The position numbers were made by a program, and so were the translations under genes. DNA of 64,000 bases from Pseudomonas sp. ACM7 (GTDB lineage: Bacteria; Pseudomonadota; Gammaproteobacteria; Pseudomonadales; Pseudomonadaceae): positions 6,185,449 through 6,249,448 of the forward strand of contig NZ_CP024866.1 in NCBI RefSeq assembly GCF_004136015.1, written 5' to 3'. Positions 20,803-39,402 of the stretch are shown here, one piece after another. How positions within the stretch are numbered: the first letter of the stretch is position 1; each line of letters opens with the position of its first letter. The notes below the pieces were generated by a model. That model worked only from the letters and a program-made list of their open reading frames with translations, was not told the DNA's origin and searched no databases.

Positions 20803-20898
20803 CACTGTGGGAGCGAGCTTGCTCGCGATAGCGGTAGAACAGTCGACATGAATGTTGAATGTGCCGCCGTCATCGCGAGCAAGCTCGCTCCCACAGTG
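20803..20898. repeat. REP doublet (REPIN), GCGAGC subtype
   Basis: Inverted REP units (CACTGTGGGAGCGAGCTTGC and complement) separated by about 40 bases. It lies between two convergent genes, the DGC gene and ubiT, so it may act as a shared 3' boundary. Confidence 0.85.
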
Positions 20899-25264: not shown

Positions 25265-25354
25265 TGTGGGAGCGAGCTTGCTCGCGATAGCGGTGTGTCA
25301 GGCAACATTTATGTCTACTGGACCACCGCAATCGCGAGCAAGCTCGCTCCCACA
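25265..25354. repeat. REP doublet (REPIN), GCGAGC subtype
   Basis: Inverted REP units (TGTGGGAGCGAGCTTGCTCG and complement) between pdxH and the moaB promoter. Confidence 0.85.
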
Positions 25355-26116: not shown

Positions 26117-27646
26117 TTATTTTAGGCGCAGACGCCGAGCCAGTTTGTGCAGGTTGCTGGGATCGACTTCCAGAATCCGCGCGGCGCTGGCCCAGTTCTG
26201 CCCGGACAGGCTCAAGGCCTGGAGAATTTTCTTGCGCTGGTAATCGTCGACCGCTTCACCCAGGGGCTGGAACGGCTCATCAGCCGTAACGTCCAGGGGA
26301 CTTTCGACGACCGCGCCCTGCCCGCCCATGGCACTGTCGAGGTCGAGAATCTCGGGTTCCAGCGTCATGATCAGGGTGCGACTCGTGCCGCGACTGAGCT
26401 GCTTCAATGCGGCTCGGCTGATCACATGTTCCAGCTCCCGCACGTTGCCCGGCCAGCTGTACGTCAGCAGCGCTCGCTCGGCCGTCGGCGACAGACGCAA
26501 ACCGCGCAGACCGAGCCGCGTCCGATTGAGTTCAAGAAAATGCCCGGCCAGCATCAACACATCGTTACCCCGCTCGCGTAGCGGCGGAATCGGCACCGGG
26601 TACACCGAGAGCCGGTGATACAGATCGGCCCGAAACAAGCCGTCGCGGATGCTGTCCGGCAGGTGCCGGTTGGTCGCAGCGATGATTCGCACATCGACAT
26701 GCAACGGTTTGTCGGCGCCGAGGCGCTGGATCTCGCCGTTCTGCAGGGTGCGCAGCAGCTTCGCTTGCACGGCCAATGGCAACTCACCGACTTCGTCGAG
26801 AAACAGCGTGCCACCGTTGGCCGCATCGAAACGTCCGGCACGGTCGCTGGTGGCGCCGGAAAATGCGCCTTTGACATGGCCGAACAATTCACTCTCTGCC
26901 AGAGACTCCGGCAACGCGGCGCAGTTGACCTGCACCAGCGGCTTATGACTGCGGCGCGACAAACGATGCAAGCGCCTTGCGAACAATTCTTTGCCGACGC
27001 CGGTCTCGCCCAGCAGCAACACCGGCAGCTCGGAATCGGCCAGTACGTCCAGTTCATTGAGCAACTGATGCAGCACCTCACTCTGCCCGAGGATTTCGCC
27101 CTCATCCGCTGGCCGCCGCACGTCTTGAATATCGCTGCGGGACAAGCGCAGGCTGCGGTTTTCCTGCTCAAGCCGGGTGACTCGCACGGCGGCTTCGATC
27201 TGCAAGGTGCAGCGCTTGAGTTCTTCCCGCGCACGGCTGTCGAAGGTCCCGGCGTGCAGCGCATCAAGGGTGATTGCACCCCAGATCCGCCCCTCCACAT
27301 ACAGGCTTACGCCCATGCAGTCGTGCACTGGCATCGGTTCGCCGGCGTGATTGTCGAGCAAGCCGTCATAGGGATCCGGCAGGCGACTGTCGGGTTCGAA
27401 CCAGGTGGGTTCGCGCGACGCCATGATCGCCGCCAGCCGCGGATGCTGGGCGATGACAAACCGGCGCCCCAACGCTTCATGCACCAGCCCGACCGTCGCG
27501 ACCGGCCTGAGGCTGTCGTCATCCAGACGCAACAACCCCACGGCGCCACTGTTGAAGTACTCGCGCAGGGTCTGGACCAATCGTTGCAACCGCACGGCAT
27601 TGGGCAACTCGACAATCAGGTCGGCCGCCAGGCTTTCACGCAGCAT
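26117..27646 (-). CDS. norR: NO-responsive sigma-54 activator NorR
   Basis: A 509-residue enhancer-binding protein. The N-terminal GAF domain (1-160) holds the acidic residues that bind the sensing iron in E. coli NorR, here in DPYDGL (91-96) and TLDAL (126-130). The AAA+ domain has Walker A GETGVGKE (213-220), the sigma-54 contact loop GAFSGA (260-265; Ser replaces the usual Thr) and Walker B LFLDEVGE. A Fis-type HTH ends the protein. It is divergent from ytfE; three NorR-type sites begin next to its own ATG. Confidence 0.92.
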   Translation of the reverse strand: MLRESLAADLIVELPNAVRLQRLVQTLREYFNSGAVGLLRLDDDSLRPVATVGLVHEALGRRFVIAQHPRLAAIMASREPTWFEPDSRLPDPYDGLLDNHAGEPMPVHDCMGVSLYVEGRIWGAITLDALHAGTFDSRAREELKRCTLQIEAAVRVTRLEQENRSLRLSRSDIQDVRRPADEGEILGQSEVLHQLLNELDVLADSELPVLLLGETGVGKELFARRLHRLSRRSHKPLVQVNCAALPESLAESELFGHVKGAFSGATSDRAGRFDAANGGTLFLDEVGELPLAVQAKLLRTLQNGEIQRLGADKPLHVDVRIIAATNRHLPDSIRDGLFRADLYHRLSVYPVPIPPLRERGNDVLMLAGHFLELNRTRLGLRGLRLSPTAERALLTYSWPGNVRELEHVISRAALKQLSRGTSRTLIMTLEPEILDLDSAMGGQGAVVESPLDVTADEPFQPLGEAVDDYQRKKILQALSLSGQNWASAARILEVDPSNLHKLARRLRLK

Positions 27647-27703
27647 GGTAGTTATTACCCTCTATGGTTGGATTAACCCTAATGCGTCCGGGTGCCTATC
27701 ACC
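27647..27703. promoter_or_regulatory. Three NorR binding sites upstream of ytfE/dnrN
   Basis: GGT-N7-ACC occurs three times: 27647-27659, 27666-27678 and 27691-27703. GGT-N7-ACC is the NorR core described in Ralstonia eutropha, where three copies are required. Distances from their starts to the -24 element at 27744 are 97, 78 and 53. One imperfect IHF-like site (TTTCAATACGTTA) lies between, at 27727-27739. Confidence 0.8.
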
Positions 27704-27743: not shown

Positions 27744-27759
27744 TGGCATGCCGGGTGCA
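27744..27759 (+). promoter_or_regulatory. Sigma-54 promoter of ytfE/dnrN
   Basis: TGGCATG-CCGG-GTGCA matches the -24/-12 consensus (TGGCACG-N4-TTGCA) with correct spacing, 42 bases before the ytfE ATG. Confidence 0.8.
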
Positions 27760-27801: not shown

Positions 27802-28476
27802 ATGAGCCTGACCCTACTGGAACAAAGCCTCGGCCAACTGGCTTGCGACATTCCCGGCGCCACGCGGATTTTCCACACCTTCAAACTGGACTTCTGTTGT
27901 GGCGGGCATAAAAGCCTGCGCGAAGCAGCCGCTGGCAAAGACCTCGATCCGCTCCTGATTGCCGATGCGCTGCACCGACTGCAAGACACCGGCGAAACCC
28001 AACACGACTGGCGCAACGAACCGTCGGAGCTATTGATCGCCCACCTTCTGGCGCGCTACCACGCCCGCCATCGCGAGCAACTGCCGGAACTGATCCGCCT
28101 GGCCCGTCGCGTCGAGCAGGTCCACGGTGCGCGCAGCAGCTGCCCCAACGGACTGGCGGATCTGCTGACCGACATTCAACAAGAACTCGAAGGCCACATG
28201 CTCAAGGAAGAACAAGTGTTGTTCCCGATGCTGCAACAGGGCATCGGTCCTCAGGCCGCTCCGCCGATCCAGGTGCTGCGCTTTGAACATGATCAACATG
28301 GCGAAGCATTGGAAAGGCTGCTCGCACTGACCAACAACATCACCCCGCCGCCCGATGCCTGTAACACCTGGCGAGCCCTTTATCGTGGGCTGCTGGAGTT
28401 TCGTGATGACCTGATGCAACACATCCATCTGGAAAACAACGTGTTGTTTGTTAACGCCTTGAACCGTCGTCACTGA
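27802..28476 (+). CDS. ytfE: Iron-sulfur cluster repair / NO-responsive di-iron protein (YtfE/DnrN/ScdA)
   Basis: A 224-residue di-iron protein that repairs nitrosylated or oxidised Fe-S clusters. The N-terminal ScdA motif is DFCCGG (C32, C33). The hemerythrin-like domain carries the iron-ligating His in HLLARYH, EGHMLKEE, FEHDQHG and HIHLENN. NorA of R. eutropha, the classic NorR target, is of this family. GGAACC gives a moderate ribosome site. NorR/sigma-54 control is clear from the upstream elements. Confidence 0.92.
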   Translation: MSLTLLEQSLGQLACDIPGATRIFHTFKLDFCCGGHKSLREAAAGKDLDPLLIADALHRLQDTGETQHDWRNEPSELLIAHLLARYHARHREQLPELIRLARRVEQVHGARSSCPNGLADLLTDIQQELEGHMLKEEQVLFPMLQQGIGPQAAPPIQVLRFEHDQHGEALERLLALTNNITPPPDACNTWRALYRGLLEFRDDLMQHIHLENNVLFVNALNRRH

Positions 28477-29017: not shown

Positions 29018-30208
29018 TTAGCCTGGATGGCCGTCCACCCGGGCTCGCAGCAGCATCGGCCCATAGCGCCAGGCGTACAGCGCAAACGCCAGCGCCCAAC
29101 ACAGACCGGCCAGCCACAACGCAGGCAGGGGAAAGAACAGGATCAACACGACCCGGCTCAAGCACGCCAGGTTGAGCAAAATGAACGCCAAAGTCATGCC
29201 CGACGGCGGCTCCAGCGCTCGGCCGGTATGCCCCAGGCTGACCCGCGCGATCATCGCCAACACCAGGCCGCCCATGGCGCCGATCGTCAGGCAATGCACC
29301 GCCAGACTCGAGTTAATCGGCACACCGAAATGCCACAGCGCCATTGCGAGACAGGCCACCGCCAACCAGGCATACGCCAGGTACAACGACCACAGCAGCG
29401 GCACGCGCCAGAGGGCGCGATCATGCCAGCGAACCAGACGCACCAGATGCAAGGCGGCCAGCACGGCGAACAACAGGCCCACCCAGAGATTGGGGTCAAG
29501 CGCAGGTCCGGCGGCATACAACAACGCCACCAGCGGTGAGCCAATCAGCAGCAGCCAATCCAGCCACGGCCAGGGGGTAACGCCTTCGACCTTGCCGAGG
29601 CCGCGCTGGATGAAGAACGGAATGACCCGCCCGCCGATCAACCCCATCATCGCCGCCACCAGCCAGAGGCCGGTCAGCACGCCTTGACGCTGCCAGCCTT
29701 CATGACCTTCGACCAGGCCGTACAGGGACAACCCGTCGGCCGCCGCTAACAACAGCAGCACCACCGCAATCGGGTAGTTACGTGTCTGCCGCACCTTCCA
29801 CAGGGTGAAACCCATGAGCGCGGCCACCGCCAGCGGGAACGCCAATTCCAGTACCGCAAGCACCGGCCACGGAGCATTGACCAGCCAGGCCGCGCGCGCC
29901 AACAACCACAGCAATGCCAGCGCGGCCAGGGGTCGCCCGCTGATGCCGGGACGACCGGTCCAGGTTTGCACGGCCGTCAGCAGAAAACCCGCGATGATCG
30001 CCAAGCCGAACCCGAACAACAATTCGTGTCGATGCCAGCCCAGCCAGCCACCCGCCGGCTGCCAGCCGGAAAGCGCACCACTGAAGGCGGCGAGCCAGAC
30101 TGGAATGACCAGCACCGCCAGCAGGCAGCCGGCGAGGAAAAATGGCCGAAAGGCCAAACGTAACAGCGGTGCGATGGCCATCGCTTTACGGCGGTCGAGC
30201 ACTTGCAT
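29018..30208 (-). CDS. nnrS: NO-response membrane heme protein NnrS
   Basis: A 396-residue protein with about twelve hydrophobic helices and the NnrS features RPFFLAG near the start, GWHRHELLFGF, GGRVIPFF and LAVHCLTIGAMGG. NnrS binds heme and copper and protects cells from NO-related stress; it is not a reductase itself. The length equals the ORF396 described beside nir/nor genes in P. stutzeri. A DNR-type box lies ~100 bases upstream; AAAGGAG precedes the ATG. Confidence 0.92.
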   Translation of the reverse strand: MQVLDRRKAMAIAPLLRLAFRPFFLAGCLLAVLVIPVWLAAFSGALSGWQPAGGWLGWHRHELLFGFGLAIIAGFLLTAVQTWTGRPGISGRPLAALALLWLLARAAWLVNAPWPVLAVLELAFPLAVAALMGFTLWKVRQTRNYPIAVVLLLLAAADGLSLYGLVEGHEGWQRQGVLTGLWLVAAMMGLIGGRVIPFFIQRGLGKVEGVTPWPWLDWLLLIGSPLVALLYAAGPALDPNLWVGLLFAVLAALHLVRLVRWHDRALWRVPLLWSLYLAYAWLAVACLAMALWHFGVPINSSLAVHCLTIGAMGGLVLAMIARVSLGHTGRALEPPSGMTLAFILLNLACLSRVVLILFFPLPALWLAGLCWALAFALYAWRYGPMLLRARVDGHPG

Positions 30209-30304
30209 AAAGCCACTCCTTTACCTTGCTGCTGACCTGACGCTAACCCACACGCGTCGAAGTAAGTCCGGGGGCAATGATCGGGTATTGGCGATCAATT
30301 GCCT

Positions 30305-30318
30305 TTGTCGCAGATCAA
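30305..30318. promoter_or_regulatory. DNR/ANR-like box upstream of nnrS
   Basis: TTGTCGCAGATCAA has a perfect right half and two mismatches in the left half, about 100 bases upstream of the nnrS ATG. Confidence 0.5.
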
Positions 30319-30378
30319 GTGTGCAAGGGACGTGCCCCGCAGCTTTCTCGTTTTCCAGTGGCGAGGGAGTTTGCCCTT

Positions 30379-30467
30379 GTGGGAGCGAGCTTGCTCGCGA
30401 TGACAGCGGTACATTCAGCATCAATGTCGGCTGACCCGCCGCTATCGCGAGCAAGCTCGCTCCCACA
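30379..30467. repeat. REP doublet (REPIN), GCGAGC subtype
   Basis: Inverted REP units between the divergent nnrS promoter and the NorR sites ahead of dnr. It separates the two control regions. Confidence 0.85.
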
Positions 30468-30483
30468 GGGGTGATCGGCTCAG

Positions 30484-30540
30484 GGTACAAATGACCCTTT
30501 AATGGTTATTTAAACCATAAAGCGTGTGGTCGTTTTTACC
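30484..30540. promoter_or_regulatory. Three NorR binding sites upstream of the small ORF and dnr
   Basis: GGT-N7-ACC occurs at 30484-30496, 30504-30516 and 30528-30540. Distances to the -24 element at 30581 are 97, 77 and 53, almost exactly those at the ytfE promoter (97, 78, 53). The middle site is also a perfect ATGGTT/AACCAT inverted repeat. Confidence 0.8.
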
Positions 30541-30580
30541 CTCTTATCTGACAACCCTAATAAACAAGGGCCTCCAGGCA

Positions 30581-30596
30581 TGGCCCGCGTCTTGCT
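30581..30596 (+). promoter_or_regulatory. Sigma-54 promoter ahead of the small ORF and dnr
   Basis: TGGCCCG-CGTC-TTGCT matches -24/-12 with correct spacing. A start near 30608 would give a 43-base leader to the 29-codon gene at 30651. Confidence 0.8.
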
Positions 30597-30650
30597 CAAG
30601 CTTTCAGCAATCAAAAAAACCTTGATCCCTCTCGATCCCCAGGAGTCGTC

Positions 30651-30740
30651 ATGAAAAAAGTCATCCAGCCACTGGCCTGGTTTGTGGTGTTGACCTCGGT
30701 TCTGGCGTTGGCCAGCGGCGTCTCACTGGGCCTCGTTTGA
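30651..30740 (+). CDS. Small hydrophobic peptide (29 aa) upstream of dnr
   Basis: Twenty-nine codons from ATG to TGA, with AGGAG six bases before the start. The product starts MKKVIQPLAW and then runs as one uncharged hydrophobic helix to the end, so it should be a single-span membrane peptide with a positive cytoplasmic N-terminus. It is the first gene after the NorR/sigma-54 promoter and 41 bases before dnr. It could be a leader peptide for dnr expression or a subunit-like small protein. No function is known to me. Confidence 0.6.
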   Translation: MKKVIQPLAWFVVLTSVLALASGVSLGLV

Positions 30741-30781
30741 CTTGATCGCCATCCCCTCCTCAATCCTCAGGATGAATTCTT

Positions 30782-31465
30782 ATGGTGCTTCATCGCGTCC
30801 ATCACCAGATTCTGCGCAGTCATCACTTGTTCGAGCCGTTGAACGAAGAACAGCTGGATGAATTGATGAGTACCAGCCACTTGTTGAGCATCGACAAAGG
30901 CGAACCGCTGTTCCGTCAGGGCGAGCCGGCAGACTCGTTTTATTTCATCATTGCCGGGGCGGTAAAAATCTACCGACTGACACCGGATGGGCAGGAGAAA
31001 GTGTTCGAGGTGATCAGCGATCGGCAAACCTTCGCCGAGGCGATGATGCTGATGGACACCCCGAACTATGTGGCCTCGGCCGAAGCGATCTGCCCGACTC
31101 AGCTCTATCGGTTATCCAACAACACCTACATGCGCCTGCTGCAGAGCAATAGTCGACTGACCTTTGCGCTGCTTGGCAAGCTCTGCGTTCGCCTGCATCA
31201 ACGGGTCAACGAAATCGAAACCCTGTCCCTGAAAAACGCCACCCACCGGGTCGTGCGCTATCTGCTGACGCAGCTGGTGCGCCAGCAAACCGTTGACAGC
31301 CAATTCGAACTGCCGATGGCCAAGCAATTGATTGCCGGGCATCTGTCGATCCAGCCGGAAACCTTTTCGCGGATTATCCGTCGCCTGATCGATGAAAAAA
31401 TCATCACCCAGGACGGCCGCCAGATCGCCATTCTCGATCGTCTGCGCCTGGAACAGTTCGAGTGA
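30782..31465 (+). CDS. dnr: Denitrification regulator DNR (Crp/Fnr family)
   Basis: A 227-residue NO-responsive activator of nir, nor and nos genes. The sensor beta-barrel spans about 15-135, followed by a dimer helix and an HTH with recognition helix in QPETFSRIIRRL; the N-terminal Fe-S cysteines of ANR are absent. AGGA lies nine bases before the ATG. It is followed with a 4-base overlap region by dnrP. The region before it holds NorR sites and a sigma-54 promoter rather than an ANR box. Confidence 0.88.
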   Translation: MVLHRVHHQILRSHHLFEPLNEEQLDELMSTSHLLSIDKGEPLFRQGEPADSFYFIIAGAVKIYRLTPDGQEKVFEVISDRQTFAEAMMLMDTPNYVASAEAICPTQLYRLSNNTYMRLLQSNSRLTFALLGKLCVRLHQRVNEIETLSLKNATHRVVRYLLTQLVRQQTVDSQFELPMAKQLIAGHLSIQPETFSRIIRRLIDEKIITQDGRQIAILDRLRLEQFE

Positions 31466-31470
31466 GTGCC

Positions 31471-31662
31471 ATGCCCGTCTGTTTGTATTGCCAACACGTA
31501 AACCCTGCGCAAGAAACCGAGTGCCGCCAATGCGGCATGCCCCTGCCGGCATTCGCCGCACAGGCGGGGGAACGCCGGCTGCGCCGATTCATGTGGTTCT
31601 GCATCGGCCTGACGATTTTCTGCGTGACGATGTTTTTCTGGCTGCCGCGCAGCATCTCCTGA
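31471..31662 (+). CDS. dnrP: DnrP-type zinc-ribbon membrane protein
   Basis: A 63-residue protein with a zinc ribbon at the N-terminus (CLYCQH, then CRQCGMPLP) and one membrane helix near residues 40-58. It begins six bases after the dnr stop; an in-frame GTG at 31462 overlapping that stop is an alternative start. A protein of this kind is named DnrP in other pseudomonads. No biochemical role is established. Confidence 0.7.
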   Translation: MPVCLYCQHVNPAQETECRQCGMPLPAFAAQAGERRLRRFMWFCIGLTIFCVTMFFWLPRSIS

Positions 31663-31671
31663 AGACACACA

Positions 31672-31823
31672 GTCCCCTGTAGCAGCTGGCGAAGCCTGCG
31701 TTCGGCTGCGAAGCAGTCGTAAATCCTGAGTCCCGTTTTTATCTGACACACCGCGTGGACTGGGTTTACGACTGCTTCGCAGCCGAACGCAGCCTCGCAG
31801 GCTCGGCAGCTGCTACAGGGGAC
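31672..31823. repeat. Inverted repeat element, GTAGCAGCTGGCGAAGC family, copy A
   Basis: GTCCCCTGTAGCAGCTG at the left is mirrored by CAGCTGCTACAGGGGAC at the right, with further paired blocks (GACTGCTTCGCAGCCGAACG). It sits between the convergent dnrP and norD and is likely to act as their common boundary. Two other copies occur at 43154 and 55881. Confidence 0.8.
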
Positions 31824-35681: not shown

Positions 35682-35695
35682 TTGATGGCGATCAA
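35682..35695. promoter_or_regulatory. DNR/ANR box of norCB
   Basis: Perfect TTGATGGCGATCAA, centred about 41 bases from a predicted start near 35647; the -10 TATCAT lies at 35658-35653 on the minus strand. Confidence 0.85.
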
Positions 35696-35742: not shown

Positions 35743-35844
35743 ATCCAATGTGGGAGCGAGCTTGCTCGCGATGGCGGTCTGACAGTCGACGAAGATGTTG
35801 AATGTTATGACCCCATCGCGAGCAAGCTCGCTCCCACATTGGAT
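35743..35844. repeat. REP doublet (REPIN), GCGAGC subtype
   Basis: Paired REP units with long matching ends (ATCCAATGTGGGAGCGAGC and complement). It separates the end of nirQ-norE-norF from the norC promoter. Confidence 0.85.

Positions 35845-37635: not shown

Positions 37636-39402
<1,767 letters not shown>

Follow-up and report, generated by a model that had tools for sequence, protein, structure and literature searches.

A conserved, predicted NorR/sigma-54 control region between nnrS and dnr in Pseudomonas sp. ACM7 and related species

The region between nnrS and dnr in Pseudomonas sp. ACM7 most probably acts as a bidirectional NorR enhancer (probability about 0.83), from which NO-activated NorR-B would drive two divergent sigma-54 promoters, one for mini-dnrO-dnr-dnrP and the other for nnrS, with DNR then acting on norCB and nirS. 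That is, NorR-B, whose gene lies 2.8 kb away, would bind three GGT-N7-ACC sites and activate the sigma-54 RNA polymerase at 30581 (mini-dnrO-dnr-dnrP) and at 30337 on the minus strand (nnrS). NO would raise the amount of DNR and, as its ligand, also activate DNR, which would switch on norCB and nirS. What can be read from the sequences is the presence of both arrays and of the -24/-12 elements, how well these are conserved, and that they are lost or changed where NorR-B is lost; from this we infer the binding, the dependence on sigma-54 and NO, the operon structure and the steps through DNR. The window mentioned below is the whole stretch of 64,000 nucleotides (contig NZ_CP024866.1, positions 6,185,449 to 6,249,448), and the features concerned are as follows.

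26117..27646, minus: norR-B, NorR-type sigma-54 activator with GAF and AAA+ domains (NCBIfam NF003451, 686.8 bits, cut-off 476; Pfam GAF and Sigma54_activat)
27647..27703, plus: NorR array 1 of the ytfE promoter, three GGT-N7-ACC sites starting at 27647, 27666 and 27691
27744..27758, plus: -24/-12 element of ytfE, TGGCATGCCGGGTGC
27802..28476, plus: ytfE (dnrN), iron-sulphur repair protein (NF008221, 331.9 bits, cut-off 254)
29018..30208, minus: nnrS (Pfam PF05940, 364.1 bits)
30305..30318, minus: FNR-type box TTGTC-GCAG-ATCAA, two mismatches to TTGATN4ATCAA
30322..30337, minus: -24/-12 element facing nnrS, GGGCACGTCCCTTGCA
30379..30466, no strand: REP-like inverted repeat (by eye), between array and nnrS-facing element
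30484-30496, plus: predicted NorR site 1, GGT-N7-ACC, GGTACAAATGACC
30504-30516, plus: predicted NorR site 2, GGT-N7-ACC, GGTTATTTAAACC
30528-30540, plus: predicted NorR site 3, GGT-N7-ACC, GGTCGTTTTTACC
30581-30596, plus: -24/-12 element of the presumed mini-dnrO-dnr-dnrP operon, TGGCCCGCGTCTTGCT
30651..30740, plus: 29-codon membrane peptide gene, putative N-terminal remnant of DnrO (homology to long forms)
30782..31465, plus: dnr, CRP/FNR-type regulator (Pfam cNMP_binding, HTH_Crp_2)
31462..31662, plus: dnrP, small protein with a CxxC...CxxC motif and a membrane segment (homologues named DnrP; ATG at 31471 possible)
35682..35695, minus: perfect ANR/DNR box ahead of norCB, likely DNR target, TTGATGGCGATCAA
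37596..37609, plus: ANR/DNR box with one mismatch ahead of nirS (37714-39402), TTGATCGTCGTCAA

The genes are arranged in the order norR(-) ytfE(+) small gene(-) nnrS(-), peptide(+) dnr(+) dnrP(+) norD(-) norB(-) norC(-) ... nirS(+), where norB, norC and norD are named by position and general domain matches. A sequence-only reading of this DNA had proposed a second NorR/sigma-54 promoter before the 29-codon gene and dnr, with three sites that are 97, 77 and 53 bases from the -24 element and nearly duplicate the spacing of the ytfE promoter (97, 78 and 53). On recheck, the site coordinates, the -24/-12 element and the distances were all exact, and the near-duplication was confirmed. Single GGT-N7-ACC sites are common in the window (36 versus 14.1 expected), so one such site means little, and one site together with a loose -24/-12 pattern is found at 43 places. 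The 6.6-Mb genome has 20 matches to a close pair (gap 4-14), at 18 distinct places, and only two of these places are triples, namely those of norR-ytfE and dnr. A chance origin of the array was rejected on the basis of these two triples and of a reversed-pattern control, which gave a single match in total across the 149 genomes of a genus sample, where the triple pattern itself occurs in 32. The -24 search with one mismatch is uninformative alone (104 matches versus 108 expected). Two 16-mers in the window differ from TGGCACGNNNNTTGCW by no more than one mismatch, where 1.57 are expected, and both are located in the nnrS-dnr intergenic region; the count is ordinary, the place is not. The hallmarks of a NorR-dependent sigma-54 promoter found here are the three tandem GT-N7-AC repeats, the downstream GG-N10-GC at a fixed distance, and a NorR with GAF and AAA+ domains that is encoded in the genome, linked to the sites, and lost or changed jointly with them.

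The related dnr loci were taken from one contig scan of Pseudomonas, as the best 80 of 161 matches to this DNR, a set in which distant dnr genes are under-sampled. For 48 of the 80, norR-B lies inside the locus (cut by the contig end in L089), and the genomes of the other 32 were searched whole, 18 having NorR-B and 14 lacking an intact one. The array and the -24/-12 element are present at dnr in all the 67 NorR-B loci (66 from the best 80 of 161, and the window), with all six outer G/C of the sites kept in 58, five in eight and four in one, and with 0-2 mismatches in the element. The distance from site 3 to -24 is 53-55 bases in 64 loci and 216-218 in three, and in two of the latter (L107 and L114) an inverted repeat is seen in the gap by eye; the long-gap loci would fit an enhancer acting at a distance, which would tolerate an insert. 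Based on the 201 sites (GT and AC define the search), the outer G/C are conserved at 99-100%, or 88% at position 1 of site 3, the inner seven bases are variable though A/T-rich, and the flanks favour an extended AGGGT-N7-ACCCT, with G at -1 in 113 and C at +14 in 138 of the 201. The ytfE array keeps all six outer G/C at 53-54 bases to -24 in 59 of 59 loci (window included; ytfE match over 140 aa). The spacing shared with the ytfE promoter is also what would be expected if the dnr array were a chance or non-functional relic, that is, a duplicated and inactive copy of that promoter; however, the site-by-site conservation in 67 loci, and the loss or alteration of the sites where NorR-B was lost, make such a relic scarcely credible.

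Among the 14 loci without intact NorR-B, none has an intact array directly before dnr or the peptide gene, where an intact array means at least four of the six outer G/C, a cut-off set after the data had been seen (a looser cut-off would add L106 and L124 to the loci with an array). In nine of them the scan, which covered up to 2.6 kb, found no array. L106 and L124 retain the three cores, with only three of six outer G/C, and in L098, L101 and L117 the only array, complete in all six outer G/C, stands ahead of ytfE. Ten of the 14 are without any NorR-B, three (L098, L101 and L117) show a C-terminal match only, which is a 535-aa open frame in L117, and in the L124 locus norR is present as two fragments, 47 and 175 aa long; L109 is a MAG, where absence may reflect incompleteness. 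In L098 and L101, nnrS was not found, and dnr could still be read from the array, because ytfE adjoins dnr directly upstream and the array is 781 bases before dnr. The three genomes with the C-terminal match (G004, G007 and G019) have kept the ytfE array all the same, and the protein is possibly an activator with another sensing domain or with none.

On the dnr tree, NorR-B changes four times, each time on a branch where the intact array before dnr changes too. If L106 and L124 are counted as arrays, two of the four pairs agree; if L098 and L101, scored above as having no array at dnr, are scored as present, there are five changes versus four, and 3.9 of the four pairs agree. The joint loss of NorR-B and the array is consequently suggestive, not significant (paired test, p 0.125), since the paired test cannot reach significance with only four NorR-B changes on the tree, and the Fisher tests (5e-16; 4e-4; 8e-10) ignore kinship and are not taken as proof.

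In the genus sample, which shares several genomes with the set searched whole, NorR was counted as matches per genome. A dnr gene (E at most 1e-80) is present in 30 of the 149 genomes, and a strict array lies within 700 bp of it in 22 of the 25 dnr genomes with at least two NorR and in none of the five with one. As for the exceptions, a near array with GGC in site 2 and AGT in site 3 remains in G145, while G045 and G085, whose dnr is 80-82% identical, have an array at ytfE and none near dnr. Disappearance of the sites from close relatives with an unchanged gene order had been named beforehand as an observation that would speak against the promoter. Among the 80 loci, the sites are lost or altered only where NorR-B is absent or matched at its C-terminus only; in the wider genus this pattern is broken by the two distant dnr genomes with two NorR, G045 and G085.

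Then, could the other NorR of the genome act on the array? This NorR-A scores higher (773.4 bits versus 686.8 for NorR-B) and is adjacent to a gene that we take to be hmp. The three sites before hmp (AGTCATAGTGACT, AGTCGGTATGACT and TGTCGATATGACT) have by eye the form GTC-N5-GAC, like those of E. coli norV. An action of NorR-A (FhpR type) instead of NorR-B would agree with the fact that 18 of 18 NorR-B genomes searched whole, and the window genome, also have a higher-scoring NorR, and that L106 and L124 keep sites without NorR-B, five of the six having the GTC-N5-GAC form versus 12 of the 201 sites of NorR-B arrays. These two lineages, and only these, look as if NorR-A had taken over. However, arrays occur in 27 of 27 genus genomes with at least two NorR matches and in five of the 122 others, although 145 of the 149 have a NorR of any type, so that we consider NorR-A a highly improbable activator at the dnr array. 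NorR-B keeps R75, D96, D99, H111, C113 and D131 of E. coli NorR, which we take to be the list of NO-sensing residues, and has alanine at the place of R81. The change of R81 to alanine makes the E. coli protein constitutive, and strict NO control of NorR-B is therefore uncertain. The NorR-B motif is GAFSGA, not GAFTGA.

Besides the dnr side, the intergenic region contains a sigma-54 element facing nnrS and an FNR-type box, both of which the sequence-only reading had overlooked, as it had the kinship of the peptide with DnrO. With no more than two mismatches, the nnrS-facing element is found in 59 of 59 NorR-B loci with nnrS (window included; one mismatch in 34, two in 25) and in 1.9% of shuffled stretches. 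It is present in two of the 11 NorR-B-less loci with nnrS, namely the core-keepers L106 and L124, and the other nine have nothing better than four mismatches. The distance from the array to the nnrS -24 varies between 34 and 277 across loci, being about 147 in the window and 55-57 in 14 loci, which are nearly mirror-symmetric with the dnr side. Thus one array probably serves both directions, nnrS and dnr. REP-like repeats lie between array and promoter on the nnrS side in the window (absent in L060, by eye) and on the dnr side in L107 and L114. Inverted pairs of TGGGAGCGAGCTTGC, about 86 bases each, occur in the window at 20808-20893, 25267-25352, 30380-30465 and 35751-35836.

The earlier remark that no ANR box is visible is right for the dnr side and needs correcting for the intergenic region as a whole, where the FNR-type box is conserved: TTGTC-N4-RTCAA occurs in 69 of 70 nnrS-dnr intergenic regions, with L121 the exception. 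The expected start of nnrS sigma-54 transcription falls within the box. In raw counts, a class II -10 towards nnrS (xATxAT) is found in 44 of 58 NorR-B loci with the box versus two of 13 NorR-B-less ones, and TAxxxT towards dnr in five of 58 (all one clade) versus 11 of 13. The box in the window seems to point to nnrS. In L098, L101, L111 and L116, an FNR-type box is located 76-78 bases before dnr, and we infer that those species may have dnr under ANR/DNR, either in place of NorR or in addition to it.

According to the excerpts of PMC3299288 used here, dnr of P. aeruginosa is under ANR and NarL. With the conserved FNR-type box in the same intergenic region and the dnr-facing hexamer in most NorR-B-less loci with the box, this could mean that the array serves nnrS only and that dnr is read mainly from another promoter of ANR/DNR or NarL type. 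But among the NorR-B loci the hexamer is confined to one clade, and 64 of 67 have a -24/-12 element directed at mini-dnrO-dnr at 53-55 bases. In addition, no sigma-70 match is present in 30150-31800 (0.7 expected), on which ground a sigma-70 promoter ahead of dnr was rejected. Moreover, L133 (2000-2560), where no dnr and only a norB fragment were found, has kept the array, the dnr-facing sigma-54 element, the peptide gene and the nnrS side. An array devoted to nnrS alone is accordingly unlikely, and the reading with two divergent promoters is preferred. An ANR/DNR-like box in the dnr leader (30742, TTGATCGCCATCCC) was also considered and rejected; by eye it recurs in L060, not in L049.

The peptide is 29 aa long in 65 of 81 loci, with pN/pS of 0.36 and GGAG in the commonest upstream strings. 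Long forms of the same gene have 170 aa (L096, L100 and L109) or 173 aa (L171), and there are intermediate forms of 64, 54, 52, 50 and 39 aa, the relatives including L097, L115 and L119. Among 26 long-form homologues three are named DnrO, and the alignment of the query with 19 of the 26 shows invariant H, W, C, D and H among others. The domain with these residues, which follows the membrane segment, is absent from the 29-codon product, which keeps only the N-terminal membrane segment and looks like a remnant of DnrO. In P. donghuensis, the peptide gene is absent while the promoter and dnr are kept; since L133 shows the reverse, the promoter is not tied to the peptide or to dnr alone.

The dnr product has CRP/FNR-type domains and linkage to the nor genes, on which it is assigned to DNR, and no NCBIfam equivalog scored above cut-off for it; its pN/pS of 0.32 is inflated, as some loci start one codon off. 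Both norCB and nirS have ANR/DNR boxes and no GGT-N7-ACC triple, and no good DNR box was found before ytfE in the window search. Excerpts of PMC9600465 report haem-dependent NO sensing by P. aeruginosa DNR, and also, as a point against the present reading, repression of nirS, norC and nosR by RpoN in that species. With NO at the top, the layout would amount to coherent feed-forward control of DNR activity. For a loop in the classical sense, NorR and DNR must also share a target, and nnrS is a candidate with its sigma-54 element and FNR-type box (two mismatches). Because ric (ytfE) of P. stutzeri is positively controlled by DnrD according to part of a review, ytfE is another possible one.

Published RNA-seq data of P. 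donghuensis P482 are in line with control by NorR. In tomato exudate the log2 changes are +6.36 for ytfE, +6.13 for hmp, +4.99 for nnrS, +4.44 for norC, +4.18 for norB, +3.23 for dnr and -1.67 for norR, and in maize they are 0.48, 1.05, 0.32, -0.07, 0.31, 0.31 and 1.41, respectively (excerpts of PMC10256816, whose authors inferred NO donors). In P. donghuensis HYS, the promoter directly precedes dnr, its -24 element starting 72 bases upstream of the gene. The tomato data agree with NorR control under an NO-like stress, not pure NO, in which norR fell; DNR acting on itself could also account for the rise of dnr. As a whole, the proposed second NorR/sigma-54 promoter is well supported by conservation, by joint loss or change with NorR-B, and by its fit to this one expression data set.

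In the family sample of 148 genomes, arrays occur in 35 genomes of seven among 19 genera, and the neighbours were examined at 30 match loci. The array precedes ytfE-DnrO-dnr in L171, L172 and L174 (DnrO truncated in L174) and ytfE-dnr in L175, is about 1 kb upstream of norC in L146/L178, L149/L179 and L154, and is by hmp in L165, L169 and L173. None of the genes asked for is near the array in L150, L157, L158 and L159, and some matches may be due to chance. In two genomes (G047 and G242), at L131 (1111-1449, minus) and L150 (1655-2008, plus), an array stands before a glycine-rich exported protein of similar look.

The arrangement resembles known systems in several respects. As in E. coli norR-norVW, there are three tandem GT-N7-AC sites and one downstream -24/-12 element, with TGGCACGCAATCTGC, at a spacing of 21/24 there and 20/24 here. 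However, the E. coli sites are GTC-N5-GAC at 67 bases to -24, whereas those here are GGT-N7-ACC at 53 bases, and the targets here are a regulator gene, dnr, together with nnrS, in two directions. The dnrN(ytfE)-dnrO-dnr cluster of another genus, presumably Stutzerimonas-like, shares the NorR array before ytfE-DnrO-dnr (L171, L172) and the truncated DnrO (L174), but there one array heads the row, whereas here ytfE and dnr have nnrS and a further gene between them and an array each. NorR arrays with sigma-54 promoters at NO-defence genes are likewise predicted for dnrN/hmp of P. stutzeri and nnrS of P. aeruginosa, and for Pseudomonas the NorR sites were predicted at hmp, dnrN and nnrS (Rodionov 2005; excerpts of PMC1274295, where dnr is not listed as a NorR target). 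The part of the open-licence full-text literature seen contains no statement that NorR controls dnr, which is a weak negative. In P. aeruginosa, dnr is itself regulated and DNR is NO-activated, with O2 and nitrate as the inputs (PMC3299288, in part), whereas here the predicted input is NO via NorR/sigma-54. Judged from its sequence and conservation, the dnr region is a real, conserved NorR/sigma-54 control region, with a new predicted target and a new layout, both of a kind already known.

Tentatively, with somewhat less than even odds, one NorR enhancer with two divergent sigma-54 promoters may have had its NO input to dnr rewired more than once. Where NorR-B was lost, dnr may have come under the FNR-type promoter already present for nnrS (one clade, 11 loci), or the array sites may have drifted to NorR-A specificity (L106 and L124), while DnrO may have shrunk stepwise from 170 to 29 residues with its membrane segment under selection.

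In the prevailing description, an ANR/NarL cascade ends in DNR as its NO sensor. The conserved region seems to let NorR turn on nnrS, for NO tolerance, as well as dnr, in many Pseudomonas associated with soil and plants. The NorR-B-less relatives are ready natural controls. The shared enhancer with two promoters would offer a compact system for studies of sigma-54 activation. If the reading is true, an NO signal from outside could suffice for denitrifying pseudomonads to accumulate NO reductase, with no prior sensing of low oxygen and nitrate, and this would bear on root colonisation and on NO/N2O release.
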